Shown here piece by piece: positions 5,917 to 59,695 of a DNA stretch of 64,000 nt (the stretch's first letter is position 1; every line of letters begins with the position of its first letter). The DNA lies in assembly GCA_027923965.1 (NCBI GenBank), contig AP026969.1, positions 2,108,001 to 2,172,000 of the forward strand, given 5' to 3'. Both the position numbers and the translations under genes were made by a program. Source of the DNA: Comamonadaceae bacterium OS-1. Lineage in GTDB: Bacteria > Pseudomonadota > Gammaproteobacteria > Burkholderiales > Burkholderiaceae_C. The notes under the pieces were generated by a model that was not told where the DNA came from, did not search any database, and worked only from the letters and a program-made list of their open reading frames with translations.

Positions 5917-5966
5917 AAAAAAGGCAGCTAGCGCTTATTGGATAAGCACAAGAAGCTACAAATTTT
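5917..5966 (-). repeat. dispersed palindromic element, copy A
   Basis: Contains CTAGCGCTTAT facing ATAAGCACAAGAAGCTA, the two arms of the element, flanked by an A/T run. It starts 16 bases after the Bug receptor stop and is oriented against that gene. Its minus-strand reading would give VASCAYPISAS, close to the peptide encoded by copy M. Confidence 0.75.
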
Positions 5967-6146
5967 GTAGTATTTGCAGCCCACCCGCTCAAAAGCCGGT
6001 TTGGCAGGTAAACAGCACCCAGCATGCGGGCTTTTTCCAGCTGCGGCACGCGCATGCCGCGCGCGGCTTCCAAAAGCCTTTTCTTGAACCCAGTTGGCAC
6101 ACTGGTTTGTAGACCGCACGGCATACATTCTCAGAAGAAATTGACA

Positions 6147-6197
6147 GATAGCGCTTATAGAACAAGCTTCTTTAGCTATTAATTTTATAGCTTTTTT
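6147..6197 (-). repeat. dispersed palindromic element, copy B (degenerate)
   Basis: Keeps TAGCGCTTAT and a TAGCTATT arm plus the A/T-rich flank TTTTATAGC, but the central stem is disrupted. It is less certain than the other copies. Confidence 0.5.
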
Positions 6198-6296
6198 CGA
6201 AAAACCTATCCCCTACAATGGAACCACCCCAAGGCAAGTCGTGTGAAGGCGTGCGGTGCGCCCAGCTGGCTTCGCACCGTGAAAGGTCTCCGTTCG

Positions 6297-8009
6297 ATGA
6301 TCTCTATTGCCTCTCCGCAGCCCGGGAACCGCAGTGCCGCGTGGCCTTTGCTGGCCAAGGCCACCCTGGTAGCCCTGCTGCTCACCGCGCCAGCTTGGAT
6401 TTTGGGCCCGATCTTCGGCGACGACTTCTTCTACCACCTGCTCTACAACACCTTCTTCAATGAGCAGCTGCGCGCGGGAGATTTCTATCCGCGCTGGCTT
6501 TTCAACGGCAATGCCGGTCTTGGCGGCCCGGTTTTCTTCTTCTACGGCGCGGTCCCGTCGTTTGCCACCTGCTTCTTCTCCGTTTTTGGACTGAGCGTTC
6601 CGCACCAAATGGGGGCGGCCGTGTTTGTGGCCACCTTGGGCAGCGGTGTAGCCGCCTATGTATGGGCCCAGATGGTGGTCTCCCGCCCGGCGGCGGTGGC
6701 GGCAGCCTTGCTGTATATGGCGCACCCCTACCACCTCAATGTCGATCTGTATCTGCGTTTTGCCTTTGCAGAATACTGGTCTTTTGTCTGGATGCCGCTG
6801 GTCTTTGCCGCCATGGTGGCAATCACCCGCGGTCGGCCCCATTTTTGGCTGTTGGGTGCGGTCTCGTATGCCTTGCTGATCGCGACCCATCCGCCCAGCG
6901 TGTTGATCTTTACCGGTCTGCTGGTTCCTTACGGGCTCTGCCTGCTGGTTGCGGCACCGGGACCGCAGCGGCTGGCCATCGCAGCCCGCATGGCCGGGTC
7001 GTTGGTACTCGGGGTCGCCCTGGCCGGCATCTACCTGGTGCCCGCCCTGACCACCCAACAGTTCGCCAGCTATGCCGAGGTGTTGAAAGTGTGGGATGCC
7101 CGCTTTTTTGTGGACCATGCTGGCCTGTGGCGCGACGGGTTGTTGCTGTCGCACGTGTGGCGCTATGGTGCCGATCCGGCCATGATGGTCTATGCCAATG
7201 CGGTGGCGTTCTCGCTGCTGGTGACCATGGTCTGCGTGGGTGTGGCCTGCGTGCGCGCCGAGTCGCCCCGCCAGCGCCTGTGGCCCCTGTTCTGGGCCTT
7301 GATCGTCGCGCTGACGATGTGGTCCATGGGCCGTGACGCCCTGCCTTTCTGGGAATTCGCGCACTACCTGCAACGCATCCAGACCCCCACCCGGCTCAAT
7401 ATGGCCATGGTGCTGGCGCTGGTGCCCCTGGTCGGGTACGCGGTAGACCGCTGGCCGCCCGGCAGAGCGCTCGCCGTAGTGGCGTGGGTGGTGGTGGCGG
7501 TGTATGCCGCCACGTTCTGGGTCCCCTCGGCTAAACAGATCTACTGGGGCTGGACCAAGTATGCCCATGTGCAGACGGGCAGTGCCATCTTGCCGCCAGA
7601 ATCACGCCCGGTGGAGGTTCCCCGCGCGCTGGCCAGCAACGCAGCGATGTCCGCACTGGGCGAGGCCACGCCCCGCGCAGCCTTTCTTTCGGGCTTGGGA
7701 ACCGTGTCAACGCCGCAATGGGGGCCCAATGGCATCGTGGTGGAAACCCAAAACGCCCAAGCGGATGCCCTCGTCGTACACCAGTTCAACTACCCGGGCT
7801 GGCGTGTGGTGAGTACACCACCCAGCGCTTTCAGTGTGGGTGCCACGCCCCAAGGCCTGCTGTCCATCCAGCTTCCGGCCGGTACGTACCGCTTGTCTAT
7901 CACCCGCAGCAAGTTGCCTGCGGAATGGACGGGGCTGGCGATCACGGCGAGCGCGGTGGTGGTCGCACTGGGCGTGCTGCTGGTGATACGCCGCCGGAAA
8001 AGGCTATGA
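6297..8009 (+). CDS. polytopic membrane protein, PF10131-like (6-PTP-synthase-related domain), probable GT-C type
   Basis: A 570-residue integral membrane protein with about a dozen hydrophobic segments and a periplasm-like C-terminal domain (about residues 430-545) before a last helix and a basic tail. The segment after helix 1, FNEQLRAGDFYPRWLFNGNAGLGG, is typical of the PF10131/YfhO-like multi-membrane proteins that resemble GT-C glycosyltransferases; the pterin-synthase name is historical. ATG 6297 is chosen because it sits after GAAAGG; a GTG at 6243 is an alternative. It converges on, and overlaps by 6 bases, a minus-strand GT2-GtrA gene, suggesting joint work in cell-surface or lipid glycosylation. 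Function is inferred from fold only. Confidence 0.75.
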   Translation: MISIASPQPGNRSAAWPLLAKATLVALLLTAPAWILGPIFGDDFFYHLLYNTFFNEQLRAGDFYPRWLFNGNAGLGGPVFFFYGAVPSFATCFFSVFGLSVPHQMGAAVFVATLGSGVAAYVWAQMVVSRPAAVAAALLYMAHPYHLNVDLYLRFAFAEYWSFVWMPLVFAAMVAITRGRPHFWLLGAVSYALLIATHPPSVLIFTGLLVPYGLCLLVAAPGPQRLAIAARMAGSLVLGVALAGIYLVPALTTQQFASYAEVLKVWDARFFVDHAGLWRDGLLLSHVWRYGADPAMMVYANAVAFSLLVTMVCVGVACVRAESPRQRLWPLFWALIVALTMWSMGRDALPFWEFAHYLQRIQTPTRLNMAMVLALVPLVGYAVDRWPPGRALAVVAWVVVAVYAATFWVPSAKQIYWGWTKYAHVQTGSAILPPESRPVEVPRALASNAAMSALGEATPRAAFLSGLGTVSTPQWGPNGIVVETQNAQADALVVHQFNYPGWRVVSTPPSAFSVGATPQGLLSIQLPAGTYRLSITRSKLPAEWTGLAITASAVVVALGVLLVIRRRKRL

Positions 8010-15003: not shown

Positions 15004-16596
15004 ATGCCTACCTTTATCTCCAATCTTTCTGTCAGCAAGCGCCTGGGCTTGGGCTTTGCCATGGTGTTGGCTCTGTCGGTAGCCATCATCGTGGTGGCTA
15101 TTGGGCGGCTGAATGCCGTGGCCGATGCCGCCCAATACATGGTGGCCTCTCCCATCAAAACCGAGCGCATCGTGGGCGACTGGTACCGCAACATCCACAC
15201 CGGTGTACGCCGGACCGGCGCCATTGCCAAAAGCAACGATCCCGCATTGGCGGGCTTTTTTGCCGAAGACCAGGCCGCATCGACCAAAAGCTCGAGCGAA
15301 AACCAAAAATTGGTGGAGGCACTGATGCGTACGGAACAGGAAAAAACCCTGTTCAACCAGATATCCGAGCAACGCAAGGCCTATATCTTGGTGCGCGACA
15401 AGATTCTGGAGCTCAAAAAAGAAGGCAAGGGTGAAGAAGCCAGCAGTTTGCTCGACCAGCAATTCACGCCCACCGCCAAAAGCTACATGGGCAAGATGGA
15501 AGAGCTGCTGGCCTACGAGCGCCAGGACATCGATGTCCAGGCCAAAGGCATCCAGGACAACTTCACCACCAGCCGCAACCTGATGCTGCTTCTGGGCGCG
15601 GTCAGCCTGGTACTCAGCGCGGTGATCGCCTGGCTGCTGTCGGGATCCATCACCGGGCCCTTGGCCCAGGCCAGCGCCGTCGCCCGCCAAGTGGCCTCGG
15701 GCGACCTGAGCGCCCGTATCGACAACCAGCGCACCGACGAACTCGGCGAACTCCTGTCCAGCCTGCAAAGCATGCAGACCAGCCTGGTGCAGGTAGTGTC
15801 GAATGTGCGCTCCGGCTCGGAAAGCGTCTCTACCGCCAGTGCCGAGATTGCCGAAGGCAACAACGACCTGAGCGCCCGCACCGAGAGCCAGGCCAGCGCC
15901 CTGGAGCAAACCGCGGCCTCCATGGAAGAGCTCAGCTCCACCGTCAAGCAAAACGCCGACAACGCCCGCCAGGCCAACCAGCTGGCCTTGAGCGCCTCCA
16001 GCGTGGCCATCCAGGGCGGCCAGGTCGTGGGCCAGGTGGTCGAGACCATGAAGGGCATCAACGAATCGTCGCGCAAGATCTCGGACATCATCCAGGTGAT
16101 CGATGGCATTGCCTTCCAGACCAACATCCTGGCGCTGAATGCCGCCGTGGAAGCCGCCCGCGCGGGCGAACAAGGCCGCGGGTTTGCCGTGGTGGCCAGC
16201 GAAGTGCGCAGCCTGGCCGGACGCTCGGCCCAGGCCGCCAAGGAAATCAAAAGCCTGATTGGTGCCAGCGTGGAGCGGGTCGAACAAGGCTCTTTGCTGG
16301 TAGACCAGGCCGGCGTGACCATGACCGAGGTGGTCAACTCCATCCGCCGGGTGACCGACATCATGGGCGAGATCAGCGCTGCCAGCAACGAGCAGTCGCT
16401 GGGCGTGGCCCAGGTCGGCGAAGCCGTAACCCAGATGGACCAGGCCACCCAGCAAAATGCCGCCCTGGTCGAGGAAATGGCCGCGGCCGCCAGCAGCCTG
16501 AAAAACCAGGCCCATGATCTGGTGCAGGTCGTCGCCGTGTTCAACCTGGGTGCCCAGGGGGGGCCGCAGAATCTGTCGCTGGGTATGCGCCGCTGA
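15004..16596 (+). CDS. methyl-accepting chemotaxis protein
   Basis: A 530-residue transmembrane receptor. A helix at about 14-34 precedes a periplasmic four-helix-bundle ligand domain (35-190), then helix 2 ([20 protein letters not shown], near 197-216), HAMP (217-270), and a long cytoplasmic signalling coil. The hairpin tip is [36 protein letters not shown], broken here at its conserved core. Adaptation region residues flank it ([20 protein letters not shown]). There is no NWETF-like CheR tether at the C-terminus. No che genes are nearby. Ligand unknown. Confidence 0.93.
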
Positions 16597-16632: not shown

Positions 16633-17016
16633 ATGCGCCGACTCGTCCTCATCCTCATGATCGCCTTGCTGCCCCTGCGCGGCTGGGTGGGCGAGGCCAT
16701 GGCCATGGAGATGTTGGCCCAGCATGCACCCGCTATACAAAAAGTAGCTGCTCACGCTCACCACACCAGCACAAGTAGCACTTTTGACATGGAAATGCAG
16801 GCCGACTGCCACGAAAGCGCAGAAGCCACATCGTCCGATACCGGCACCTCCCACTGCGGCACCTGCCCGCTGTGCCAGATGTGCCACACCGTAGCCGCCC
16901 CCGCCTCCTCGGCGGCGGTTCCAACCCCCTGGCTGCCGCATGCGCAGCCCACCACCGGCCCCGCCCGGTTTGCCAGCGCGAGCGCCGCATTTGCGCTGAA
17001 ACCACCGATTTCCTGA
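16633..17016 (+). CDS. CopL/DUF2946-like small Cys/His-rich copper-locus protein
   Basis: A 127-residue protein starting with a signal-like helix (RLVLILMIALLPLRGWVGEAMA). The centre is rich in possible metal ligands: HAHHTSTSS, MEMQADCHES, and HCGTCPLCQMCHTVA, with four Cys in 11 residues. Such proteins open copper-resistance operons; CopL of Xanthomonas is the named relative and controls copA expression. Family assignment is by layout and motif, not by a strong domain. Residues 33-52 are encoded by copy C of the dispersed element, which adds His residues. It is the first gene of the collinear copper operon reaching 21048. Confidence 0.6.
   Translation: MRRLVLILMIALLPLRGWVGEAMAMEMLAQHAPAIQKVAAHAHHTSTSSTFDMEMQADCHESAEATSSDTGTSHCGTCPLCQMCHTVAAPASSAAVPTPWLPHAQPTTGPARFASASAAFALKPPIS
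16731..16786 (+). repeat. dispersed palindromic element, copy C (inside the CopL-like gene)
   Basis: CGCTATACAAAAAGTAGCTG, CTCACGCTCA, then AGCACAAGTAGCACTTTT. The arms AAAAAGTAGC and AGTAGCACTTTT are imperfect complements. It lies sense and in frame and encodes AIQKVAAHAHHTSTSSTF. Confidence 0.75.
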
Positions 17017-20139: not shown

Positions 20140-20202
20140 GCAATTGCTCTCAAATTCGCAGCTGCTCACGCTCATGGAATAAGCACGAGAGCTCGATTTT
20201 CT
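20140..20202 (+). repeat. dispersed palindromic element, copy D
   Basis: GCAATTGCT, AGCTGCTCACGCTCAT and ATAAGCACGAGAGCT followed by a T-rich run. It begins 2 bases after the multicopper oxidase stop in the same orientation, so the transcript would carry a hairpin followed by T tract. Confidence 0.75.
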
Positions 20203-20229
20203 TTAAATTTTGAATCCTGGAAAAACACC

Positions 20230-27332: not shown

Positions 27333-27982
27333 GCCGACTCCATCCAGCCGCGCTGCACCAGCACGCTGTGGATTTGCTGCCACACCGCGTCGCGCTCCAC
27401 GTCGGCAGCGATGCGCGCGAACCGGGCCGGGGCCTGGGCGGCGCGCTGGGCGTAGCCATCGGCCACGCGGGCAAAAAAGGCGGCGGGCTGGGATTCAAAC
27501 CGGTCGGGCACGCGGGCCCCCGCCAGCCGCTCGGCGGCCACGGCGGGTGGCAGATCGAACCACAGCGTCAAATCCGGGTTACGAACAAAATCAGCACCTA
27601 GCGCTGGTACAGACTGCACGAGCAGCTCCAAATACGATAGCACGCCCAGGTCGAAGCCCCGGCCACCACCCTGGTAGGCAAAGGTGGCATCGGTGAAGCG
27701 GTCGCAGACCAGCACCTCGCCGCGGGCCAGGGCGGGTTCGATCACGTTTTGCAAATGGTCGCGCCGGGCGGCGAAGACCAGCAAGGCCTCGGTCAGCGGG
27801 TCCATGGCATCGCCCAGCACCAGGGTGCGAAGCTTCTCGGCCAGCGGCGTGCCGCCGGGCTCGCGGGTCAGCGTGACTACCCTGCCCTGCGCCCGGAAGG
27901 CCGCGGCCACGGCGGCGATATGGCTGGACTTGCCCGCGCCGTCTATGCCTTCAAAGCTGATAAAGATGCCAGGTGGGTTCAT
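27329..27982 (-). CDS. tmk: thymidylate kinase
   Basis: A 217-residue dTMP kinase. The P-loop is [11 protein letters not shown], followed by [14 protein letters not shown] and the substrate motif [16 protein letters not shown]. Compared by eye with E. coli Tmk, the stretch between GGGRG and PDLTL is 8 residues longer; the extra part (around residues 114-132) coincides with copy E of the dispersed element and encodes [13 protein letters not shown]. It overlaps mltG and holB by 4 bases each, so the block is translationally coupled. Confidence 0.95.
27587..27642 (-). repeat. dispersed palindromic element, copy E (inside tmk)
   Basis: On the gene's strand: GTGCTATCG, AGCTGCTCGTGCAG, AGCGCTAGGTGCTGATTTTG. 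Sense orientation but one frame away from the other intragenic copies. Identity is lower than for copies F, H or M. Confidence 0.6.
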
Positions 27983-32590: not shown

Positions 32591-33742
32591 TTACAGCGGC
32601 TGCACCTGCCCCATGTCGGGCCGCAGCAGCCACTGGGCGAACTCATCGGCCATTTGCTGGCTGGCGGCGATGGCACCGGTCCAGGCTTTGGCGCGGCGGG
32701 GCAGGTCCAGGCCGTAGTGGCTGAAGTCGGCGCGGTCGGGCAGTTTGCCATTGGGCAGGGTTTTGACCCAGTCGGGATTCGGGGCCAGCACCAGCATGTT
32801 GTCCAGAAAGCTGGACGATTTGTGCCGCCAGGTCAGCCGCTTGTCCAGCCAGCCGGGCACTACCGCTTTTTGAAAATGCGGATACAGCACCAAACCGGCA
32901 GTAGACACATTTTTTATATCTTTTAGGCCATCCGTGCTTATTCCATCGGCACGAGCAGCTATTTTTTGCATAGCAATCTTGGGCCGCAGGTATTGCAGGT
33001 GCAGGTGGTAGTCGGTGAGGCCGCCGTCCCAGTAGGCACCGGGCGGCGCGCCGGGAATGTCGTGTACCGCACGCAGCACAAACGGGATGGAGCAACTGGC
33101 CAGCAATGCAGGCACCAGGTTCTGCGCCGTCAGGTCGAACTGGCGGGTCGGGTAGTCGCGGCTGCGAAACGGCAGGCGCGCGTGCTGGCTGGAGAACACC
33201 ACCCGCTCCAGCCAGGCACCCATGGTTTTACGGCGCAGTGCATTGGCCAGGTAGGCCCCCGCAAAGCCCAGCGGCGTGCGCAAGGCCTGGTCGCGGGCCA
33301 GCAGGTGCCGCCCGCGCGAGGTGATGATGTGCAGCTTGAAGCAGGGGTGCTGCAATACCTCGGCCTCGCGCCCCGCGTAAAACGCCTTGAGGTTGCCGCC
33401 AAACACCCGGCTGATGGTGTCGGGCGTGGGCATTTTGCGGCCCGGCGGCAGGTCGTAGTGCTGAAAAATGTATTCCTGCTCCAGCCGGTCAAAGCCCTGC
33501 AGCGGGTCTTTCAGGCAGGCGGTGGTCATGCGCCAGGCACCGATGGACGCACCCACCAAATGGATGGTGTGGGCGCTGGCCCGCAGCCAGTCGCCAAACA
33601 AAAAACGGTCCAGCCGCCCCAGCACCAAGCCTTTTGGGCCGCCTGCGGCCGCCGGAATCACCCGTACATCACGGGGTTGCAGGCCGTGCTGCTGCAGGTG
33701 TTTAAAGGCCGTGGGGCCGGCATACAGGCTCAGAGCCCTCAA
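32591..33742 (-). CDS. patatin-like phospholipase
   Basis: A 383-residue patatin-fold protein with the Ser-Asp dyad: nucleophile elbow GASIGAW at 64-70 and DGGLTDYH with Asp239. An oxyanion-type Gly cluster is AAAGGPKG near 31-38. It should hydrolyse acyl esters of lipids. No signal peptide. Residues 255-280, immediately after YLRP, are encoded by copy F of the dispersed element (KIAMQKIAARADGISTDG and on) and look like an insertion in a loop past the catalytic Asp. Its start overlaps the HDOD gene stop by 4 bases. Confidence 0.87.
   Translation of the reverse strand: MRALSLYAGPTAFKHLQQHGLQPRDVRVIPAAAGGPKGLVLGRLDRFLFGDWLRASAHTIHLVGASIGAWRMTTACLKDPLQGFDRLEQEYIFQHYDLPPGRKMPTPDTISRVFGGNLKAFYAGREAEVLQHPCFKLHIITSRGRHLLARDQALRTPLGFAGAYLANALRRKTMGAWLERVVFSSQHARLPFRSRDYPTRQFDLTAQNLVPALLASCSIPFVLRAVHDIPGAPPGAYWDGGLTDYHLHLQYLRPKIAMQKIAARADGISTDGLKDIKNVSTAGLVLYPHFQKAVVPGWLDKRLTWRHKSSSFLDNMLVLAPNPDWVKTLPNGKLPDRADFSHYGLDLPRRAKAWTGAIAASQQMADEFAQWLLRPDMGQVQPL
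32910..32975 (-). repeat. dispersed palindromic element, copy F (inside the patatin gene)
   Basis: On the gene strand: TGCTATGCAAAAAATAGCTG, CTCGTGCCGATGGAATAAGC. The left arm matches copies H and I closely; the right arm is altered. Sense, in the same frame as copies C, I and M. Confidence 0.8.
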
Positions 33743-42505: not shown

Positions 42506-43243
42506 ATGGCAAATGCTATTCAATATATAGCTTCTATCGCCCTATCCATCAGCACAGGAGCCGTATTTTCTTCGGAAAGCATGTGCACGCAAGCGTCGGG
42601 CAAAAACCGGCTGCCGGTGGTGGAGCTGTACACCTCGGAGGGCTGCAGCTCGTGTCCGCCGGCCGACCAGTGGCTCAGCCAGCTCAAGGGCCAGGCTGCG
42701 GTGGTGCAGGCCTTCCACGTAGGCTACTGGGACCAGCTAGGCTGGGTAGACCGCTTCGCCACACCGGCCCACACCGTGCGGCAGCGCCAAGTGGGCACGT
42801 GGAACCAGCAGGCCACTATTTACACGCCGCAGGCGGTGTTGAACGGCGAGGAATGGAAGCGCTGGGGCGGCACCGTCGCCGACAAGGACGCCGGGCCCGC
42901 ACTGGCCCAGATCAGCCTGCACCAGGTCGGAACGGACCAGTTCGAGGCCATGGTCACGCCGGGGCCCAGTGCGCCCGGCCACTGGTCGGCCTACTGGACC
43001 GTGACCGAGAACGGCCACAGCTCCAAAGTCCAGGCCGGTGAAAACGCCGGGGAGTTCTTGCAGCACGACTTTGTGGTGCGCCAGTATGTGGTGGCGGGCG
43101 TGTACGCCAGCGATGCGCGCGCGCCGCAAAAGCTCGCCTTTCGCAGCATCGCCAGCAGCCACGACCATCCACGGCGCATCAATCTGGTGGTGTTTGACCC
43201 GCAAACGGGCAAGACGCTGCAGGCCCTGGCCGCGCCCTGTTAA
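42506..43243 (+). CDS. DUF1223 secreted thioredoxin-like protein
   Basis: A 245-residue DUF1223 protein with the family core VVELYTSEGCSSCPPADQWLS (shown here as the CxxC motif, Cys47 and Cys50), HVGYWDQLGWVD, and YTPQAVLNG. It is probably a periplasmic thiol-related protein. CAGGAG sits five bases before ATG 42506. The hydrophobic N-terminus AIQYIASIALSISTGAVF is encoded entirely by copy I of the dispersed element and seems to act as the signal sequence. Its stop overlaps the convergent GST gene by 4 bases. Confidence 0.85.
   Translation: MANAIQYIASIALSISTGAVFSSESMCTQASGKNRLPVVELYTSEGCSSCPPADQWLSQLKGQAAVVQAFHVGYWDQLGWVDRFATPAHTVRQRQVGTWNQQATIYTPQAVLNGEEWKRWGGTVADKDAGPALAQISLHQVGTDQFEAMVTPGPSAPGHWSAYWTVTENGHSSKVQAGENAGEFLQHDFVVRQYVVAGVYASDARAPQKLAFRSIASSHDHPRRINLVVFDPQTGKTLQALAAPC
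42509..42572 (+). repeat. dispersed palindromic element, copy I (encodes DUF1223 N-terminus)
   Basis: GCAAATGCTATTCAATATAT, AGCTTCTATCGCCCTATCCA, TCAGCACAGGAGCCGTATTT. The left arm is shared with copy G. Sense orientation, in frame from the second codon. Confidence 0.75.
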
Positions 43244-44428: not shown

Positions 44429-44487
44429 CAAGAAAAAGGCCTCTAGCGCTGATGGAATGGGCGAGAGCAGCTATTATTTTCAGAGTA
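44429..44487 (-). repeat. dispersed palindromic element, copy J (overlaps the thiolase stop)
   Basis: On the thiolase strand: CTGAAAATAATAGCTGCTCT, CGCCCATTCCATCAGCGCTA, GAGGCCTTTTTCTTG. Arms and a T run are kept, so it could end the thiolase transcript; the TGA stop sits in its left edge. Confidence 0.8.
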
Positions 44488-45655
44488 CTTCAAATACGCC
44501 TGCCGCGCCCATGCCGCCGCCGATGCACATGGTGACCAGCACCCGCTTGGCACCGCGGCGCTTGCCTTCGATCAGTGCGTGGCCGGTGAGACGCTGGCCG
44601 CTCACGCCGTAGGGGTGGCCCACGGCAATGGCGCCGCCGTTCACGTTCAATCGGTCTGCGGGAATGCCCAGCTTGTCGCGGCAGTAGATCACCTGCACCG
44701 CGAAGGCTTCGTTCAGCTCCCACAGGTCGATGTCGCTGACCTTCAAGCCCAGGCGCTTGAGCACCTTGGGGATGGCGAACACCGGGCCGATGCCCATTTC
44801 GTCCGGCTCGCAGCCCGCCACCGCAAAGCCCAGGAAGCGGCCCAGCGGCTGCAGGCCGCGCTGGCTGGCCAGGGTTTCGTTCATGACCACCACCGCGCCG
44901 CCGCCGTCGGAGAACTGGCTGGCGTTACCGGCGGAGATCAAGCCACCTGGAATCGCCGAGCGCAGCCCGGCAATGCCTTCCGCCGTGGTGCCTTCGCGGA
45001 TGCCTTCGTCCTGGCTCACGGTGACCTCCTTGGTCATCAGGCCGCGCACCTTGTCGGCCACGCCCATGGTGACGGTGATGGGCGCGATCTCGGCGGTAAA
45101 CCGCCCGGCGGCCAGTGCAGCGCTGGCTTTTTGCTGGCTGGCCGCGCCGTATGCGTCCATCTGCGCGCGGGTGATGCCGTAGCGCTGGGCTACCATTTCA
45201 GCGGTTTGCAGCATGTTCCAGTAGATCTCGGGCTTGTTTTTGACCAGCCAGGGGTCGGTGAGCATGTGGGTGTTCATCTCTTGCTGCACGCAGGAAATGC
45301 TTTCCACCCCGCCTGCCACATACACATCGCCTTCGTTGGCGATGATGCGCTGCGCGGCCATGGCGATGGTTTGCAGGCCGGACGAGCAAAAGCGGTTTAC
45401 GGTGACACCCGATGTCGTTACGGGACAGCCTGCGCGCAGGGCGATCTGGCGGGCGATGTTGGCCCCGGTGGCACCCTCGGGCGTGGCGCAGCCCATGATC
45501 ACGTCGTCCACTTCGGCGGCTTCAATGCCTGCACGGGCGATGGCGTGCTGCACCGCGTGGCCGCCCAGGGTGGCGCCGTGGGTCATGTTGAAAGAACCCT
45601 TCCAGCTCTTGGCCAGGGGGGTGCGGGCGGTGGAAACAATTACAGCGGCGGTCAT
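44480..45655 (-). CDS. acetyl-CoA C-acyltransferase (thiolase, FadA type)
   Basis: A 391-residue thiolase. The acyl-enzyme Cys is in [11 protein letters not shown], the catalytic His in VGHPYGVSG, and the second Cys in [13 protein letters not shown]. Glu-Leu-Asn-Glu-Ala (ELNEAFAV) is the oxyanion-site loop. It cleaves 3-ketoacyl-CoA in beta-oxidation. It lies 12 bases after the FadB-like gene, the normal pairing for a fatty-acid oxidation complex. Confidence 0.95.
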
Positions 45656-48906: not shown

Positions 48907-49593
48907 CTAAACCTCTAGCCATTCGCGGCAAATCCCGGCATTCGCACGCAACTGCGCGGGCGTGGCAGCCAGCACCACCTGCCCCCGCCCCATCACCAGC
49001 ACCCGGTCGGCCACCTCCAGCGCCAGGGCCTGTTTTTGCTCCACCAGCAACACCGCCACGCCCTGGGCTTTGAGCAGGCGCAGGGCAGCAGCCACCTGCG
49101 CCACCACCTGGGGGGCCAGGCCTTCGGTGGGTTCGTCGATGACCAGGAGCTGGGGGTTGCCCATCAGGGCGCGGGCCAGGGCCAGCATTTGCTGTTCGCC
49201 ACCTGACAGCACGCCACCGGAGGTGTGCTCTCGAGCCTTGAGGTGGGGGAACAGGGTGTATACGGCATCAAAAGTCCAGGGGCCGTTGCCTTTTTGGCCC
49301 AGCAGCAGGTTTTGCTGCACGCTCAGGCGGGGAAAAATGTCACGGGCTTCCGCCACATAGGCGATGCCTTGCTGGGCGACGGCAAACGGCGGCTGACCCA
49401 CCAGTTGCTGGCCGTGCCACAGGATGGAGCCCTCGCAGCGCACAAGGCCCATCAGAGCCTTGGCGGTGGTGGAGCGTCCCGCGCCGTTGCGGCCCAGCAG
49501 GGCTACGGTTTCACCGGGCTGGATGGCGAACGACACGCCGTGCAGCACGGGGGTCTGGCCGTAGAAGGCGCGCAGGTTTTGGACGTGTAGCAT
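48907..49593 (-). CDS. livF: branched-chain amino acid-type ABC transporter ATP-binding protein LivF
   Basis: A 228-residue ABC ATPase of the LivF type: Walker A LLGRNGAGRSTTAKAL (with Arg at the usual Lys position: GAGRST), signature LSGGEQQMLALARAL, Walker B LLVIDEPTEGLAP. The Arg in place of the P-loop Lys is common in LivF-like subunits of this clade. It overlaps livG by one base (TGATG). Together with LivG it powers a high-affinity uptake system. Confidence 0.92.
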   Translation of the reverse strand: MLHVQNLRAFYGQTPVLHGVSFAIQPGETVALLGRNGAGRSTTAKALMGLVRCEGSILWHGQQLVGQPPFAVAQQGIAYVAEARDIFPRLSVQQNLLLGQKGNGPWTFDAVYTLFPHLKAREHTSGGVLSGGEQQMLALARALMGNPQLLVIDEPTEGLAPQVVAQVAAALRLLKAQGVAVLLVEQKQALALEVADRVLVMGRGQVVLAATPAQLRANAGICREWLEV

Positions 49594-50339
49594 CAGGCCC
49601 CCTGCCCCAGGTAGGCGGCTTGCACCCGCGGGTTGGCGCGCACTGCATCCGGTGTGTCGAAAGCAATGACTTCGCCCGCCACCAATACAGCGATTTTGGC
49701 CGCTACCGCTGATACCACCTGCATATCGTGCTCTATTATCAGTAGCGTTTTGCCTTGGGTTACGTCGTGGATGAGCTGCACAAAATGAGTGGCTTCCTGC
49801 ACGCCCATGCCCGCCGTGGGCTCGTCCAGCAGGATGACGCTGGCCCCGCCTGCGATGGTGATGCCCAGTTCCAGCGCGCGCTGCTCGGCGTAGGTCAGGT
49901 GGGCGGCCAGCACGTCGCGTTTGCCATCCAGCTGCACCTGGGCCATGAGCTGCTCGGCCCTTTCGCGCACGTCCTTAAGGCCACTCAGCAAGCGCCAGAA
50001 GGTATAGCCATAGCCTTGGCTCCACAGCAGGCTGCAGCGCAGGTTTTCGAACACGCTGAGCTGGGCAAACAGGTTGCTGGTCTGGAAGCTGCGCGACAGG
50101 CCTGCGCGGTAGATCTCGAACGGCTTTTTGCCCTGGATGGCCTGGCCGTGCAGCAGAATCTGGCCGCTGCTGGGGGCGGTGCGGCCACTGATGAGGTTGA
50201 ACAGCGTGGATTTGCCCGCGCCGTTGGGGCCGATCAGGGCTACGCGCTCGCCCGTGGCCACCGTCAAATCTGCACCCCGGATGATCTGCGCCGCGCCGAA
50301 GTTCTTGCGCAGCGCGATGAGTTGCAGCGCGGGCGTCAT
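49593..50339 (-). CDS. livG: ABC transporter ATP-binding protein LivG
   Basis: A 248-residue LivG: Walker A GPNGAGKSTLFNLISG, the LivG-typical RSFQTSNLFAQLSVFENL, LTYAEQRALELGITIA signature, VILLDEPTAGMG and H-loop LLIIEHDM. The start at 50339 overlaps the livM stop (ATGA). Codons around IIEHDM (ATA, ATT) and the underlying DNA weakly resemble the dispersed element, but protein length is normal. Confidence 0.93.
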   Translation of the reverse strand: MTPALQLIALRKNFGAAQIIRGADLTVATGERVALIGPNGAGKSTLFNLISGRTAPSSGQILLHGQAIQGKKPFEIYRAGLSRSFQTSNLFAQLSVFENLRCSLLWSQGYGYTFWRLLSGLKDVRERAEQLMAQVQLDGKRDVLAAHLTYAEQRALELGITIAGGASVILLDEPTAGMGVQEATHFVQLIHDVTQGKTLLIIEHDMQVVSAVAAKIAVLVAGEVIAFDTPDAVRANPRVQAAYLGQGA

Positions 50340-52381: not shown

Positions 52382-52436
52382 TAGGCCTCCAGCGCCCTAT
52401 CAATGAGCGTGAGCAGCTATTTTAATCGTAGCAATT
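52382..52436 (-). repeat. dispersed palindromic element, copy L
   Basis: On the minus strand: TTGCTACGATTAAAATAGCT, GCTCACGCTCATTGATAGGG, CGCTGGAGGCCTAA. It begins about 10 bases after the acyl-CoA synthetase stop, in the same orientation. The terminal T run is lost, so terminator activity is doubtful in this copy. Confidence 0.75.
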
Positions 52437-52445: not shown

Positions 52446-54071
52446 TCACCCCGGCAGCCGGTAATCCTTCAGCATCTCGCGCAGCCGCATTTTCTGCATC
52501 TTGCCGGTAGCACCCAGCGGGATGGCGTCGACAAACACCACGTCGTCGGGCACCTGCCATTTGGCGATTTTGCCCTCGTAAAAGGCCAACAACTCGGCCA
52601 CGCTGAGCTCGGCACCGGGCTTTTTCACCACCACCACGATGGGCCGCTCGTCCCACTTGGGGTGGGCCACGCCGATGCAGGCGGCCATGGCCACCGCCGG
52701 GTGGGCCACGGCGATGTTTTCTACCGCGATGGAGCTGATCCATTCGCCGCCAGACTTGATCACGTCCTTGCTGCGGTCGGTGATCTGCAGGTAGCCGTCG
52801 GCATCGATGGTGGCCACGTCGCCGGTGGGAAACCAGCCATCCACCAGCGGGCTGGGCTCGGGGCTGCGGTAGTAGTCGGCCACGATCCACGGGCCTTGCA
52901 CCAGCAGATCGCCGGCCGACTGGCCATCGTGCGGCAGGGGCTGGCCGTCGTCGCCCAGTACCTTCATATCTACGCCGTAGACCGCCCGGCCCTGCTTCAG
53001 GCGCATCGCCAACTGCTCTTCTTTGGATAGCAGCAGATGCTTGTTCTTCAGGGTGCACAGCGTGCCCAGGGGCGACAGCTCGGTCATGCCCCAGGCGTGG
53101 ATCACCTCCACGCCGTAGTCGTGCTGAAAGGCCTTGACCATGGCCGGGGGACAGGCCGAGCCGCCAATCACGGTGCGTTGCAGGCTGCTAAAGCGCAAGC
53201 CCGCGGGCTGCATGTGGCCCAGCAGCATCTGCCACACGGTGGGCACGCCTGCGGCAAAAGTGACCTTTTCCGACTCGATCAAGGTGTAGACCGAGGGGCC
53301 GTCCATGGCCGGGCCGGGGAACACCAGCTTGCAGCCGGTAAGCGCCGCGCTGTACGGAATACCCCAGGCGTTGACGTGGAACATGGGCACCACGGCCAGC
53401 ACCGCGTCACGGGCGCTGAGGTCCATGGCATCGGGCAAGGCCGCGGCGTAGGCGTGCAAGGTGGTGGAGCGGTGGCTGTAGAGCACGCCCTTGGGATCGC
53501 CGGTGGTGCCGCTGGTGTAGCACAGGCTGGAGGCGGTGTTTTCGTCGAACTGCGGCCACACGTAACTACTGGAGGCGGCAGCGATCCAGGCTTCATAACT
53601 CACCAGGTTGGGGATGCCGGTGTCCGCAGGCAGCTTGTCGGCATCGCACAGCATCACCCAGTGCTGCACCGTGGGACACTGGGCGTGGATGGCCTGCACC
53701 AGCGGCAGGAAGGTGGCATCGAAGCACAGCACCCGGTCTTCGGCGTGCTGGGTGATCCAGGCGATTTGCGTGGGGTGCAGGCGCGGGTTGATGGTGTGCA
53801 GCACCCGGCCCGAGCCACTCACGCCGTAGTACAGCTCCAGATGCCGGTAGCCGTTCCAGGCCAGCGTGGCCACGCGGTCGCTGAAGGCCAGGCCCCAGCC
53901 GTCCAGCGCGTTGGCCACCTGGCGAGCGCGGGCGGCCACCTTTTGGTAGCTGGTGCGATGGATGTCGCCCTCGACCCGGCGCGAGACGATTTCGCCGTCA
54001 CCGTGGTGGCGGTCGGCGAAGGCGATCAGGGTGGAGATCAACAGGGGTTGGTTTTGCATCAGGCCCAGCAT
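52446..54071 (-). CDS. AMP-dependent acyl-CoA synthetase (medium/long-chain fatty acid type)
   Basis: A 541-residue adenylate-forming ligase. Motifs in order: LCYTSGTTGDPKGVLYSHRS (ATP/AMP binding), HAWGMTELSPLGTL, GWFPTGDVATIDADGYLQITDRSKDVIKSGGEWIS (hinge, three consecutive parts), and the catalytic Lys in PLGATGKMQK. Residues match the DUF-free acyl-CoA synthetases of about 540 residues that activate medium-chain or aromatic acids. Start MLGLMQNQPLLIS at 54071. Adjacent to livHMGF on the same strand, consistent with import then activation of one acid. Confidence 0.93.
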   Translation of the reverse strand: MLGLMQNQPLLISTLIAFADRHHGDGEIVSRRVEGDIHRTSYQKVAARARQVANALDGWGLAFSDRVATLAWNGYRHLELYYGVSGSGRVLHTINPRLHPTQIAWITQHAEDRVLCFDATFLPLVQAIHAQCPTVQHWVMLCDADKLPADTGIPNLVSYEAWIAAASSSYVWPQFDENTASSLCYTSGTTGDPKGVLYSHRSTTLHAYAAALPDAMDLSARDAVLAVVPMFHVNAWGIPYSAALTGCKLVFPGPAMDGPSVYTLIESEKVTFAAGVPTVWQMLLGHMQPAGLRFSSLQRTVIGGSACPPAMVKAFQHDYGVEVIHAWGMTELSPLGTLCTLKNKHLLLSKEEQLAMRLKQGRAVYGVDMKVLGDDGQPLPHDGQSAGDLLVQGPWIVADYYRSPEPSPLVDGWFPTGDVATIDADGYLQITDRSKDVIKSGGEWISSIAVENIAVAHPAVAMAACIGVAHPKWDERPIVVVVKKPGAELSVAELLAFYEGKIAKWQVPDDVVFVDAIPLGATGKMQKMRLREMLKDYRLPG

Positions 54072-54209
54072 CGGCGGTCTCCTAAAAAATGGTTTCCCAG
54101 TATTGCCCGACGGTGGTGGCCTGCGCCCCGGTGTTGACCCGCAGTCTGTCGCGTGCGCAACATGGCCCTGCGCACTGTGCGTCCTCATGAACTGCGGGAC
54201 AATCCCCTT

Positions 54210-55706
54210 ATGACTACTGCCGCAGAGAACGCCACCGAACTAAACCTCGACCTGGGCCTGGCCTGGCGCAACCGCTTTGCCACCCTGGGCACGGCCTTCT
54301 ACACCAACCTGCAGCCCACCCCTCTGCCCTCACCCTACTGGGTGGGCCACAGCCTGGCGGTGGCGCGCGAGCTGGGGCTGGACCCGGCCTGGCTCAGCTC
54401 CGAGGACGGCGCGCAGGCCTTTACCGGCAACACCGCCATCCGCAGCACGCAAACCTTGGCCAGTGTCTACAGCGGCCACCAGTTTGGCCAGTGGGCCGGG
54501 CAGCTGGGCGACGGGCGGGCGATTTTGCTGGGCGAAGTAGTCACACCCAGCGGCCAGGGGCTGGAGGTGCAGTTCAAGGGTGCGGGCCGCACGCCCTACT
54601 CGCGCATGGGCGATGGCCGGGCGGTGCTGCGCTCCAGCATCCGCGAATTCTTGTGTAGTGAGGCGATGCATGGTTTGGGCATTCCCACCTCGCGGGCGCT
54701 GTGCGTCACCGGGTCGGACGCGCCGATCCGCCGCGAAACCATAGAGACCGCCGCCGTGGTGACCCGCGTGGCCCCCAGCTTCATCCGCTTCGGGCACTTT
54801 GAGCACTTTGCGGCGCGCAACCAGATCGAGCCGCTGCGCCAACTGGCCGACTTTGTCATCGACACCTACTACCCCGCCTGCCGGGATGCCGTGAATCCCT
54901 ATGCGGCCCTGCTGCAGGCGGTAACCGAGCGCACCGCCGAGCTGATCGCCCAGTGGCAGGCCGTGGGCTTTTGCCACGGGGTGCTGAATACCGACAACAT
55001 GAGCATCCTGGGCCTGACGCTGGACTACGGCCCGTTCCAGTTTCTGGACGGCTATGACCCCGGCCACATCTGCAACCACAGCGACGACCATGGCCGCTAC
55101 GCCTATGACCAGCAACCCAATATCGGCAACTGGAACCTGTTTTGCCTGGGCCAGGCCCTGCTGCCACTGATCGGTGCGCAAGAGCCTGCCCTGGCCGCGC
55201 TGGAAACCTACAAGACGGCTTTCCCCGCCGCCCTGGCCCGCCGCATGCGCGCCAAACTGGGCCTGGTGGATGCGCAGCCGGGCGACCAGGCGCTGGCCGA
55301 CGGCATTCTGGCCCTGTTGGCGCAAGAGCATGTGGACTTCACGATTTTTTGGCGCACCCTGAGCCACTGGGTAGCTCAAACGCCTGGTAAGTTGCCCAAC
55401 GCCGTACGCGACCTGTGGGTAGACCGCGATGCCGCCGACGCCTGGCTACTACAATATTCAGAGCGGCTTGCGCCGATGGATAGGGCGCAGGCGGCCGATT
55501 TGATGCTCAAAACCAACCCGAAGTTTGTGCTGCGCAACCACCTGGGCGAAGAAGCCATCCGCCGCGCGAACCAAAAGGACTTTGCCGGAGTCCACACCTT
55601 GTTGGCGTTGCTGGAAACCCCGTTTGACGAACATCCGGGGTTGGATGCCTACGCCGACTTCCCGCCCGACTGGGCTTCCTCCATTGCCATCAGCTGCTCA
55701 TCATGA
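54210..55706 (+). CDS. selO: protein adenylyltransferase SelO (YdiU)
   Basis: A 498-residue pseudokinase-fold AMPylator. Typical blocks: [50 protein letters not shown] (each a separate stretch), and [21 protein letters not shown] with the metal-binding Asn and Asp. It transfers AMP from ATP to Ser/Thr/Tyr of target proteins, linked to redox homeostasis. The C-terminus ISCSS keeps the Cys that is selenocysteine in vertebrate SelO. Start ATG 54210. Its stop overlaps msrB (ATGA). Confidence 0.95.
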
Positions 55707-56113: not shown

Positions 56114-56125
56114 CCGTTTCTGTTC

Positions 56126-57804: not shown

Positions 57805-57820
57805 GCCTTTGTGCAACTGA

Positions 57821-57845: not shown

Positions 57846-57920
57846 ACGCCCGCCCATCCACTGCGCATCGCCAGCAGTCCGGCCAAGCCGGTGTTGTTGC
57901 CAGCCTATGGAACATATTCT

Positions 57921-58709
57921 CTATGCGGCCAACCCAATATCTCGAAGCAATGGACCCCATTTCTGTATCGCAATTTTCTTGAAACCTCCGCCGGTGGGAT
58001 GCAGCTCATTGGCCCAGTCGCCGGCGCCGAGGGTGCCGCGGCTGTCCACCAGGTGTAAATGCCCAGGGTCCATTGCGACGATGTTCAACAGCACCTTGTG
58101 GAAGCGGTCGAGCAGCAGCTTCACGCATAACTGTTGCAGGTCTGGCGGAACACCTGCATTCACCAGGGCCGGCTGGAGCCAGCCTTGCTGACCAAAAACC
58201 CCTTTGCCGTCGGGTATGGCGTAGTCGTAGCTGTGCATGATGATGTGGCAGTCGAGCGAGGTGCGCGTGTAGATCACGCCGATCAGCTTGCGGTAATACT
58301 GGTCCATACGATCGAGAAAACCGTCCAGCCCCTGCTCACCCGCCTGGAAGCAGCCCTCGGCAGTGGTTTCTTTCGAGCACTTGTCCTTAAGCAAGGGGCG
58401 CATATCGTTGAAGCCGGCGAAGTCATTGCCGCCGCCACTGATCAGCACGGCCGATAGACCGGAGCCATACAGTTTCAAAGCTTGGTTGATGCTTTTGGCA
58501 TACTTGCCATCCACATAATCAAAAGCTTCAGCGCCGTTCATTCCCTTGACCAAAATGACATGCGACTTGGTTTCTACCATGGGGCCAATGTAATTGATGA
58601 GGCTACCACCGGGAAACAAATACCAGAACCAAGAATCTCCAATTGCCATCATGGTGGGAAACGCGCCTTGATTTTGCATTATGGTGGCGTCCCAGTAAAA
58701 ATTCGACAT
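57921..58709 (-). CDS. SGNH/GDSL-like hydrolase, cytosolic
   Basis: A 262-residue protein (start MSNFYWDA; an upstream ATG at 58724 would add five). SGNH blocks are recognisable: MAIGDSWFWY (block I, GDS), LISGGGNDFAG (block III, GGND), and ELHPTGGGFKKIA with the catalytic Asp/His region (block V). No signal peptide. Base composition is visibly AT-richer than its neighbours, suggesting transfer. Substrate unknown; homologues are annotated only as SGNH/GDSL hydrolase family. Confidence 0.75.
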   Translation of the reverse strand: MSNFYWDATIMQNQGAFPTMMAIGDSWFWYLFPGGSLINYIGPMVETKSHVILVKGMNGAEAFDYVDGKYAKSINQALKLYGSGLSAVLISGGGNDFAGFNDMRPLLKDKCSKETTAEGCFQAGEQGLDGFLDRMDQYYRKLIGVIYTRTSLDCHIIMHSYDYAIPDGKGVFGQQGWLQPALVNAGVPPDLQQLCVKLLLDRFHKVLLNIVAMDPGHLHLVDSRGTLGAGDWANELHPTGGGFKKIAIQKWGPLLRDIGLAA

Positions 58710-58957
58710 GGTGCAGTCCTTCATTGATTTGATAAGGACTCCAATTTAGGCCGCCAAAGCTGTACGGACATCCTCCAAATAGGGGAGCTAGGTCGGTAAA
58801 TCCTTAAATGTGCTGCTAGATGAAATGCACGTACGCGCAGCACCGGCACCTCGCGCCACCAGCCACCAAATGGCGCAGAGCTTCTCGTAGACGACATCCC
58901 GGGCGGATGCGGATTGAACTGTGGCGACATGGAACCCACGGCCCCATTCGATTGAAC

Positions 58958-59695
58958 TCAGCGCACCAACAGCCAACTTGTAGCGGTTAAGGTCCCGATC
59001 AACACCGGCTGGTGCAGCAGGTAGTACGGCAGGCTCCAGCGGCCCAGCCAGGCCAGGGGGCGTGGAGCAGCGCCTTGCAGCCACTGCGGATGCTTCCTAA
59101 ACAGCCAGAAACCGGCAGCCATGCCCCACCACAGCACGCCCAGCCAGGGGAAAACAGGCACATAGTCTTCGGTGATGGGCTTCTGGGTGATCCAGCCCAG
59201 CCAATTGACTGATTTTTGGTTGAAAAAAGTGGCACTAGCGCTTATGGGTAGAGCGTAGGAAGCTATGAATTTAGAAGCAATTGCCAGTCCACCCATGGGC
59301 CACAGCCACAGACCGCAGCGGGCCGTGAGCCGGGCCACCAGCAGCATCACGGCCATGCCGTGCAGCACGCCGAAGTAAATCCAGCTGTCCGGGAACATGA
59401 AGGCAGACCCGGCCGACACCAGCAGCGCGGCCCCCGCCACCTGCGCCCAGCGCCGCCAAAAACGCGGCCAGCCCACGGCGTGCTGCGCAGCCACCGCCTG
59501 GCCCAGCCCGGCGCAAAACAGAAACAGGCTGACGATGGCCACCCGCTGCCAGGTCCAGAACGGGTCGGCGTAGAAGTTTTGCGGCCACAGGCCCGCGTGG
59601 GCCAGGTCGAAGCTGAAGTGGAAAGCCGTCATCCACACCACGGCCAGGCCCCGCAGGGCATCGACGCGGTCGAACCGGGCCTTCAAGGCTTTCAA
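58958..59695 (-). CDS. DUF1624 / heparan-alpha-glucosaminide N-acetyltransferase-like membrane protein
   Basis: A 245-residue membrane protein with seven to eight helices. The N-terminal [27 protein letters not shown] is the DUF1624/acyltransferase-3-like opening with the conserved Asp-Arg-Gly and His; [20 protein letters not shown] and [14 protein letters not shown] are the other signatures. It should transfer an acyl group across the membrane; the acceptor is unknown. Residues 138-158 ([20 protein letters not shown]) are encoded by copy M of the dispersed element. The stop of the upstream-reading partner leuA overlaps by 4 bases. Confidence 0.85.
59222..59284 (-). repeat. dispersed palindromic element, copy M (inside the DUF1624 gene)
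   Basis: On the gene strand: GCAATTGCTTCTAAATTCAT, AGCTTCCTACGCTCTACCCA, TAAGCGCTAGTGCCACTTTT. Left and right arms both match copies D and H well. Sense, same frame as copies C, F and I. Confidence 0.85.

Follow-up and report, generated by a model that had tools for sequence, protein, structure and literature searches.

Is the palindromic sequence that recurs in and between the genes of this Comamonadaceae DNA a mobile element that inserts into genes in frame, as the palindromic elements (RPE) of Rickettsia do, or is it a signal kept in place? The first view was that of a sequence-only reading of the 64-kb stretch analysed here (the window), which listed 12 related copies, five of them inside genes. 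We find that the pattern looks more like a genome-wide recognition signal than a jumping element.

A large family of near-palindromes

The repeat family is far larger than the 64-kb window. A profile search recovered 236 copies in 1.264 Mb sampled from the genome of Comamonadaceae bacterium OS-1 and none in the reversed sequence of the same sample, used as a control; as the sample is a quarter of the genome, ~950 copies are extrapolated genome-wide. The unit is one 55-letter near-palindrome (motif span ~50-60 bp) with the core positions GCTA / WWW / AGCTnCTyryGC / n11 / GCrC..GC / TTT, near-invariant GC steps and dyad symmetry; the consensus has 20 G/C in 62. In G000 the score distribution is highest at 40-60 bits and tails off thinly towards low values, with 45 per Mb under 27 bits against 207 per Mb over that score. 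Half motifs standing alone show no clear enrichment, one arm being in slight excess when 2-3 mismatches are allowed (17 vs 13 and 249 vs 202), which leaves a short half-site model, as for DNA uptake sequences (DUS), unsupported.

Of the 12 copies listed for the window, 11 belong to the family, with scores of 28-56 bits and E values from 1.7e-6 to 3.5e-15 for the 1.264 Mb. They were still significant (E 2.5e-8 to 5.2e-16 for the 64-kb window) with a second model built solely from intergenic copies outside the window, a non-circular check that gave no match at E<1 in the reversed window. The copy listed at 6147 falls below the threshold and appears to be either half a copy or a fortuitous match. 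The five copies named as in-gene do lie within genes, and the host identities hold for tmk, patatin and DUF1223, which agree with Pfam; the gene named DUF1624 matches PF07786 HGSNAT_cat, and the CopL-like ORF is without a Pfam match. The copies, including one added in selO, are as follows.

5914..5971, minus strand: intergenic copy after gene 4875-5900 (+); 48.4 bits, E 7.8e-13
6137..6191, minus strand: doubtful half copy, listed at 6147; its two best pieces score 8.3 bits (E 0.13) and 5.5 bits (E 0.99)
16732..16788, plus strand: copy in the CopL-like ORF 16657-17016 (+), sense; 36.0 bits, E 6.2e-9; kept in G284 and G222
20145..20205, plus strand: intergenic copy directly after gene 18762-20138 (+); 40.9 bits; same site in G284 and G222
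27585..27642, minus strand: copy in tmk (27329-27982, -), sense; 29.1 bits, 32.8 with the non-circular model
32925..32975, minus strand: copy in the patatin-like gene (32591-33742, -), sense; 41.2 bits
37056..37112, minus strand: copy overlapping the 3' end of gene 37096-37866 (-), which we take to be an ABC ATPase by its motifs; 40.1 bits
40572..40629, minus strand: best copy, intergenic between 39811-40548 (-) and 40632-42284 (-); 55.9 bits, E 3.5e-15; same site with different tips in G284, G037 and G299
42514..42569, plus strand: copy in the N-terminal part of the DUF1223 gene 42506-43243 (+; Pfam), sense; 28.1 bits
44427..44486, minus strand: copy overlapping the 3' end of 44480-45655 (-); 45.7 bits; site common to G284, G037 and G222
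49697..49746, minus strand: possible decayed copy in gene 49593-50339 (-), doubtful; 13.4 bits, E 0.0034 (intergenic-only model)
52383..52433, minus strand: intergenic copy after 52446-54071 (-); 35.4 bits
55447..55504, plus strand: added copy in selO (54153-55706, +; Pfam), sense; 30.6 bits, and 30.8 bits, E 1.2e-8, with the intergenic-only model
59222..59279, minus strand: copy in the HGSNAT_cat gene (58958-59695, -; Pfam; the 'DUF1624' gene), sense; 29.4 bits

No Rfam family matched the window above its gathering score. A single copy used as a query matched one plasmid record and no phage record, at a score at which the same query reaches only 45 of the 236 copies of its own family. Full-text matches to strings of the element in open-licence PMC papers were unrelated by title, and the element appears to be undescribed in that literature.

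Most in-gene copies compared add no element length

Forty-seven of the 236 copies lie inside genes. The sense orientation noted for the five listed in-gene copies is shared by all six in the window and does not extend to the larger sample, with 28 sense and 19 antisense copies among the 47 (P=0.24). The proposed frame bias, by contrast, is real (22/6/0 sense and 16/2/1 antisense copies over the three phases), and a dispersed palindromic family with in-gene copies in open frames is borne out. On each strand, TAG or TAA interrupts two of the three frames of the consensus, leaving one frame per strand open, and it is these stops that give rise to the related peptides and the frame bias. The shared peptides do not by themselves show a coding role.

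In-frame insertion was the central claim, and it fails for seven of the eight in-gene copies compared, whose net length differences of -2 to +11 aa fall short of the 16-20 aa of the element. Relative to homologues, the proteins differ at the element by -2 aa (SelO), 0 to -1 (Nif3), about +2 (HGSNAT), +7 (ThiL), +8 (Tmk and YfiH) and +10 to +11 (DapF), with patatin at -2 to +30 depending on the homologue. In alignments with solved homologues, the stretch under the element has gaps of 0-1 residues in Nif3 and 2 in SelO. The 'DUF1624' gene has a complete HGSNAT domain, its net difference being +2 residues as judged by Pfam end points only. The eight additional residues of Tmk are relative to two solved Tmks; among 80 family homologues, 71 are shorter at the element by no more than 3 residues, and a recognisable copy is present in only a minority of Tmk homologues. 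The DUF1223 gene is of the same length in its relatives, those compared being of the genus alone. Patatin is different: 17 of 24 homologues are without 19-30 residues at the site, the other seven differing by -12 to +2, and this copy of 16-20 residues may be an insertion of the element. Homologues that have the same segment without the element, which the sequence-only reading had named as evidence against insertion, exist for some copies; patatin is compatible with insertion.

In nif3, the outer motif is spelled in place in 13 of 17 genomes with data, using ATA, which makes up 3.4% of Ile codons, or GTA. The other four genomes, without the outer motif, have GTG or GTC there and are as long or slightly longer; the contrast concerns this site and is not one between element-bearing and element-free lineages. 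Core letters are kept at the DNA level inside genes, where rare codons are needed. The presence of a copy in nif3 does not track genome-wide copy number, as G008 and G076, both copy-rich by pattern (146 and 102 copies), have none there, and most nif3 carriers outside the genus are copy-poor by pattern, which we count against the reading that we favour below.

Sites are fixed and dialects differ

We tried to map 105 sites in two relatives, of which 30 and 85 could not be mapped. Among the mapped sites, 73 of 75 keep the copy in a 91%-identical relative and 18 of 20 in a more distant one, always in the same orientation. A MITE or other transposing element, whose sites would differ between relatives, is not supported by these counts. 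No clean empty site that would define element ends or a target duplication was found among the mapped sites. Two intergenic sites are 36-39 nt shorter in G147, which either a gain or a loss of DNA would fit. Conserved 2-kb blocks are no richer in copies than non-conserved ones (2.1 vs 2.5 per 10 kb), a lack of core-over-accessory enrichment that we count against the in-place reading favoured below.

A selfish RPE-like element that inserts in frame into genes would explain the palindrome, the presence of copies both between and in genes, and the open frame with its related peptides, and the patatin counts, being compatible with insertion, raise its odds slightly. Sites that are fixed between species, the two orientations in genes and the seven genes without a gain of element length argue against it, and we consider such an element very improbable, RPE-like insertion being supported for one gene at most. 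Like RPE, as described in PMC2229807, the motif is palindromic, has an open frame and occurs within genes that encode conserved proteins; RPEs are inserts of 105-146 bp, whereas the motif spans 50-60 bp, is without a matching gain in length in seven of eight genes, lies in genes in both orientations and occupies the same sites across species.

What is conserved at the shared sites is the core. Core columns are identical at 177/178 (G284) and 72/72 (G222) positions in genes and at 450/450 and 86/86 outside them, which is partly an effect of detection, since called copies alone were compared, though just 2 of 75 and 2 of 20 mapped sites were uncalled. Variable columns within the motif are identical at only 218/272 in-gene and 464/714 not-in-gene positions in G284 (48/110 and 55/131 in G222), and are thus less conserved than the flanks (mean identity 90.7% in G284, 84.1% in G222). 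The tips, by contrast, change their consensus from species to species where the sites are shared. At column 28, 16 of 17 sites have T or C in G000 and 13 of 17 have A in G222, and the base agrees at only three of the 17 (P=3e-9 against flank identity).

We tentatively favour, at somewhat below even chances, a dyad-symmetric genomic signal that is maintained in place in the manner of DUS and whose intergenic copies double as bidirectional terminators. A putative sequence-specific factor would read the whole ~50-60 bp motif, and an in-place process, be it recombination biased by uptake, as with DUS, or simple selection for binding, would keep the core and drag sites to the dialect of the lineage. 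Copies would erode where the factor or process is lost, perhaps in G147; a pattern search, which detects one dialect best, found no copies in G147, G243 and G194. Several observations count against this reading: the strand imbalance among the 236 copies (99 plus vs 137 minus, P=0.016), the scarcity of low scores, the lack of a clear excess of solitary half motifs, the shorter G147 sites and the possible insertion in patatin. The competence gene product ComEC occurs in every one of the 28 genomes tested, whether or not they have copies, and offers no contrast.

Copies mark gene ends

In G000, copies fill 26 of 31 convergent gene pairs and 5 of 55 divergent ones, with one copy per filled region save for one tandem region with two. 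In the measured contigs of G284 and G222, 26 of 36 and 12 of 27 convergent pairs are filled. Intergenic copies follow stop codons at a distance of ~20 nt, and their two orientations are about equally common in tandem pairs (45 vs 46). In three contigs measured, no two copies are less than 300 bp apart, and spacing is more even than that of random gene ends (CV 0.75, 0.83 and 0.72; P 0.002, 0.07 and 0.005), also with spaced transcript ends as the null (P 0.0055, 0.16 and 0.002).

Hairpin stability exceeds that of column shuffles in convergent copies (z -7.6, 46 rows) and in all intergenic copies (z -6.0) and does not in in-gene copies (z +1.5), while T53 is present in 176 of the 180 copies, of 234, that are aligned that far. 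Intergenic copies therefore combine a stable hairpin with a T run at predicted transcript ends, the features of an intrinsic terminator, and may also serve to terminate transcription in both directions. Arm-to-arm covariation, scored with a fixed pair map that may miss loop-length variants, is near shuffle expectation at single pairs (a few at z 2-3.5, one at -4.4); a simple hairpin with strong covariation is unsupported at single pairs, the support being for the total stability of intergenic copies.

Palindromic repeats of the REP/BIME class occur in hundreds of copies behind genes and form hairpins. It is possible, though not probable, that the family is an old 3'-end repeat of this kind: non-autonomous, spread once in ancestral Comamonadaceae, kept for termination and 3'-end protection, and given its dialects by gene conversion, with in-gene copies as tolerated leftovers. 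This would fit the position behind stops in either orientation with convergent enrichment, the confinement of hairpin selection to intergenic copies, the high peak of scores with few intermediates, the patatin copy and the shorter G147 sites. Neighbouring columns are also locally linked (e.g., 41-43); linkage across the element, however, is weak (up to ~0.07 bits), and for this reason there is no sign of subfamilies. The core is moreover as strict in genes as between them, and some in-gene segments show no length change. The sole RAYT-like gene found, present in 287 of 299 genomes whatever their copy number, has a different conserved repeat behind it. As a mobiliser we reject RAYT: there is one Y1_Tnp gene, and in 19 of 20 loci listed its downstream flank is, by eye, that other repeat. 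A motif copy does sit at the 3' end of the Y1_Tnp gene in G000, G284 and G222. The motif resembles this class in being palindromic, hairpin-forming and present behind genes in hundreds of copies, and differs in the 47 of 236 copies within genes and in that no cognate RAYT was found; none of the six taxon terms looked for occurs in PMC3733652, a paper on this class.

A site bound by a protein that organises or replicates the chromosome (a nucleoid protein, gyrase or a segregation factor), unrelated to DNA uptake, would account for dyad symmetry with near-invariant GC steps, even spacing and DNA-level constraint in genes, and changes of dialect would fit the coevolution of binder and site. It does not predict the avoidance of divergent promoters or the preference for transcript ends; eight coarse bins gave no sign that orientation switches from one half of the chromosome to the other, and some relatives (those named above, by a pattern that sees one dialect best) are without copies. 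We consider this improbable.

Relation to known signals

The closest likeness of the favoured in-place signal is to the DUS of Neisseriaceae and the USS of Pasteurellaceae. According to PMC3630211, PMC1939737 and PMC2346458, these too have high copy number on both strands, in and between genes, and form dialects with an invariant core, are associated with terminators and arise by point mutation in place. The motif shares the strong over-representation on both strands in and between genes and the dialects around an invariant core; it is not a short, single word with a graded excess of near matches. Unlike the ~9-12 bp non-palindromic word of DUS and USS, it is one palindrome of 50-60 bp, with half units not clearly found alone, few intermediates and a strong gene-end bias. 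Gradual drive predicts a graded excess of near matches (PMC1939737), and uptake sequences have a reported orientation bias in genes (PMC2346458), which the motif does not significantly show (28 vs 19).

We speculate further, and consider it rather unlikely, that Comamonadaceae mark self-DNA with a signal of their own, unrelated to DUS and USS: a palindromic 55-bp sequence for uptake or exchange, imprinted in place at about a thousand sites, conserved genes among them, with dialects as exchange barriers, and recruited as the standard bidirectional terminator of convergent genes. If copies are written and rewritten in place, a family of common environmental bacteria would have a genome-wide dialect signal in addition to DUS and USS, and its anatomy, a single long palindrome, is absent from both. 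It would then become testable what imposes one sequence on about a thousand sites, genes included. For annotation, segments of the conserved Tmk, Nif3, DapF, ThiL and SelO carry the motif, and the motif marks most convergent gene ends in the measured contigs of G000 and G284.

Another dispersed repeat with some copies in genes, BRE, occurs in Comamonadaceae and in Bordetella (Hot 2011). As described in PMC3110155, BRE is ~90 bp long, averages 69% G+C in Bordetella, has at most 29 copies per genome in the table of that paper and is sometimes in tandem. Length, G+C and copy number in that description would set BRE apart from the motif, which has 20 G/C in 62, ~950 extrapolated copies and a distance of at least 300 bp between copies in the three contigs measured.

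Abundance and structure of the motif

OS-1 has a single contig of 5.12 Mb, on which the window occupies 2108001-2172000. An iterated profile search of this window together with 60 stretches of 20 kb across the chromosome (1.264 Mb) recovered 236 distinct motif copies at E<0.01 and 201 at E<1e-6, and no copy in the same 1.264 Mb reversed; extrapolation gives ~950 copies per genome. A whole-genome pattern count yielded 200 forward and 199 reverse matches (control, 1 and 0), largely identical near-palindromes read from either strand. The sequence-only reading had listed 12 copies in the window, of which 11 passed the profile search and that at 6147 fell below threshold; an additional copy in selO at 55447 again makes 12. 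The in-gene copies in Tmk, SelO and Nif3 scored 32.8, 30.8 and 44.4 bits under a model from which all in-gene and window copies had been left out, and are therefore unlikely to be chance look-alikes. The sampled copies lie unevenly on the two strands (99 plus, 137 minus, P=0.016), with no visible switch between chromosome halves.

The consensus from the own-genome profile is about TGCTATaaAattaATAGCTgCTcGcGCTtATtcaATaAGCgCaAGcaGCtatTTTT, with prevailing letter classes W at columns 9-11, Y at 25 and R at 41 among 234 aligned copies.

Table. Near-invariant motif columns among 234 aligned copies (denominator, copies aligned at that column)
Left: C3 205/205; T4 207/208; A16 234/234; G17 233/234; C18 233/234
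Centre and right: G26 234/234; C27 230/234; G39 230/232; C40 232/232; T53 176/180; T54 177/178

Solitary half motifs were not clearly enriched once copies had been masked, so the whole palindrome is the unit. Columns are most strongly linked to their neighbours (41-43 reaches 0.26 bits) and only weakly across the element, where linkage is about 0.07 bits or less; this gives no sign of the subfamilies expected from a few active masters. Arm-to-arm column pairs seldom exceed shuffled complementarity (|z| <=2.5, except 3.5 for 23:43 and -4.4 for 32:34).

Copies between genes

With genes called by a custom caller (89.4% of the sample coding), 47 of the 236 copies fall within genes and 164 between them; a further 21 overlap a gene end and 4 lie at sample edges. 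In the 492-kb contig measured for OS-1, with intergenic regions of 50 bp or more counted, one copy is present in 26 of 31 convergent regions and in 5 of 55 divergent regions (P=2.6e-12); tandem regions carry a copy in 49 of 130 cases, one of them holding two. Convergent regions are also filled in the relatives G284 (26/36) and G222 (12/27). Between tandem genes the core lies a median of 16-20 nt after the stop codon, in even orientations (45 versus 46). Relative to column shuffles, folding of ungapped rows was 2.0 kcal better for intergenic copies (130 of 164, z -6.0), 3.3 kcal better for convergent copies (46 of 61, z -7.6) and not better for in-gene copies (31 of 47, z +1.5), so hairpin formation is favoured between genes and not within them. 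Judged by sequence, intergenic copies have the features required of a bidirectional terminator.

Copy midpoints are never less than 300 bp apart in the three contigs measured (OS-1, G284 and G222). Spacing there is more even than that of random gene ends (CV 0.75, 0.83 and 0.72; P 0.002, 0.07 and 0.005, respectively), and with spaced transcript ends as the null the P values are 0.0055, 0.16 and 0.002, not significant for G284; the OS-1 and G284 results share sites and are not independent.

Fixed sites and species dialects

The 492-kb contig contains 105 copies. In G284, at about 91% identity, a position could be assigned for 75 of them (30 unmappable), and 73 of those positions carry a copy in matching orientation. 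The corresponding figures for G222 are 20 mappable (85 unmappable) and 18 with a copy. Core columns are identical between OS-1 and G284 in 177/178 comparisons in genes and 450/450 elsewhere, and between OS-1 and G222 in 72/72 and 86/86. The variable columns agree between OS-1 and G222 in just 48/110 and 55/131, lower than the flanks (84%). Each species has its own tip consensus (GCGCTTATtcaATAAGCGC in OS-1, GCGCTgATggaATaAGCGC in G284, GCGCAGgTtctAccTGCGC in G222), and further spellings, based on few copies, occur in G037, G299 and G301. Where sites are shared, OS-1 has T or C at column 28 in 16/17 copies and G222 has A in 13/17 (P=3e-9 against flank identity). Many sites have been altered in parallel while their positions are unmoved. 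The nearest rival to the in-place signal that we propose below is an old family of REP-like terminators that gene conversion has homogenised.

Copies within genes

The sequence-only reading had proposed an RPE-like element that inserts in frame into genes. An inserted element should add 16-20 residues. We chose eight in-gene copies, four in the window and four in the rest of the sample, for which known proteins or fetched homologues permitted a comparison, and mostly found no gain of element length. The two best solved homologues of Nif3 (ybgI of E. coli and TTHA1606 of Thermus) align through the segment with one and zero gap residues. SelO is two residues shorter than the best solved SelO, and in HGSNAT a 222-position Pfam domain covers 224 residues, as judged from its end points. 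Net gains were +7 for ThiL, +8 for Tmk, +8 for YfiH and +10 to +11 for DapF; in the Tmk segment 71 of 80 family homologues fall short by no more than 3 residues, 29 being equal in length, and few carry a recognisable motif copy. At the patatin site, 19-30 residues are missing from 17 of 24 homologues and the remaining seven differ by -12 to +2, so that this copy could be an insertion. Free insertion of an RPE-like element is the least likely reading, and because patatin counts in its favour we raised its standing slightly, to one still very improbable. For the ORF at 16657 and the DUF1223 gene, the comparison covered genus relatives carrying the copy.

In-gene copies outside the window (L013, L034) and in the DUF1223 gene:
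L013:15976-16037, antisense: copy in nif3, 46 bits
L034:13674-13735 and 16028-16089, both antisense: two copies in one gene of ~1345 residues, presumably purL from its sequence
Window 42514-42569: copy forming residues 3-24 of the DUF1223-gene protein, which is of equal length in genus relatives; by eye, these residues resemble a signal peptide

At nif3, 17 relatives were retrieved; the sequence from G004 was truncated and is left out, so OS-1 was compared with 16. The TA step of the motif is spelled ATA or GTA in 13 of the 17 genomes, giving AIKKIA, AIKNIA or a near variant (AIKKVA, AIEKVA, AINKVA).

Table. Spelling at the nif3 site in 17 genomes
ATA or GTA: G000 (OS-1), G284, G222, G037, G012, G033, G041, G002, G013, G038, G021, G063, G147
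GTG or GTC: G008 and G079 (PIRRVA), G076 (PLGRVA), G043 (AIKRVA)

Segment length equals that of OS-1 except in G008 (+1), G079 (+3) and G076 (+6). In OS-1, 3.4% of isoleucines are encoded by ATA and 5.6% of alanines by GCT. The spelling and lengths indicate that the motif has been written in a conserved protein segment without inserting. Outside the genus, the whole-motif score is 40.8 bits in G021 and 15-20 in G033, G012 and G013, and falls below 7 bits in G002, G038, G041 and G063, where just the outer part is kept. Counting against a simple story, presence at nif3 does not track copy number by the OS-1 pattern: G008 (146 matches) and G076 (102) are copy-rich yet lack the motif spelling, and most carriers outside the genus are copy-poor.

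The claimed sense orientation of in-gene copies did not hold in the larger set (28 sense versus 19 antisense among 47, P=0.24). The preference for one frame is pronounced (P about 1e-6 and 1.5e-5) but requires no special mechanism, since each consensus strand has just one frame without TAG or TAA.

A proposed signal maintained in place

The motif resembles DNA uptake sequences in traits that portions of the literature ascribe to them: constraint at the DNA level in genes, sites that stay fixed, dialects that share an invariant core, and formation within codons that were already present (PMC2346458, PMC3630211, PMC1939737). Even spacing is also claimed for them in part of that literature, its strength being disputed (PMC1939737). 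Unlike uptake sequences, the motif is a long single palindrome without half sites, lacks a graded excess of near matches and is biased to gene ends. Motif copies were not enriched in conserved regions and no receptor for the motif is known, both of which we counted against identity with uptake sequences. Given the shared traits, the terminator features and the filling of 26/31 convergent pairs, we propose a genome-wide signal that would be read by some putative factor, with copies maintained in place and intergenic copies perhaps recruited as terminators.

Taxonomic spread

At least 20 matches to the OS-1 tip pattern, counting both strands, occur in 24 of 299 genomes from 12 genera. Counts range from 0 to 400 within the window's genus, and another genus spans 0 to 189; the pattern favours the OS-1 dialect, so low counts are no proof of absence. 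Profile copies occur in 11 of 80 tmk neighbourhoods of named records, the carriers being Rhodoferax, Simplicispira, Diaphorobacter, Acidovorax, Alicycliphilus, Polaromonas, Comamonas and one further Burkholderiales. The congener G147 gave no profile match in 120 kb; a weight matrix detects a few weak copies, and its nif3 copy is worn (about 20 bits). The motif system appears to have been lost in G147, possibly making it a natural knock-out for tracing the motif's factor via gene loss.

With a single copy as query, which at the same score reaches 45 of the 236 own copies, one plasmid record and no phage record matched. A copy-like match of 76.3% identity lies within a sigma-54-dependent regulator gene of a Comamonas plasmid (NZ_CP101744.1:221184-221242). 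A pattern scan of viral sequences gave an exact tip match on one contig (IMGVR_UViG_3300047523_000008, L286:6092-6114); the scan is weak, as the 1.264 Mb sampled from OS-1 contain the exact pattern just once.

Other repeats

A second, unrelated dispersed repeat of ~100 bp lies at window 37902-38006. It matches other places in the OS-1 genome and, among the genus relatives listed, also G147; it is possibly the BRE of Hot 2011. OS-1 also carries a single-copy RAYT-like Y1_Tnp gene (G000:C1:161390-162085; L089, L090), which 287 of the 299 genomes of the family possess. By eye, this gene is followed by its own conserved repeat (TGTCCC ... AATCTGACCC) in 19 of the 20 loci shown.
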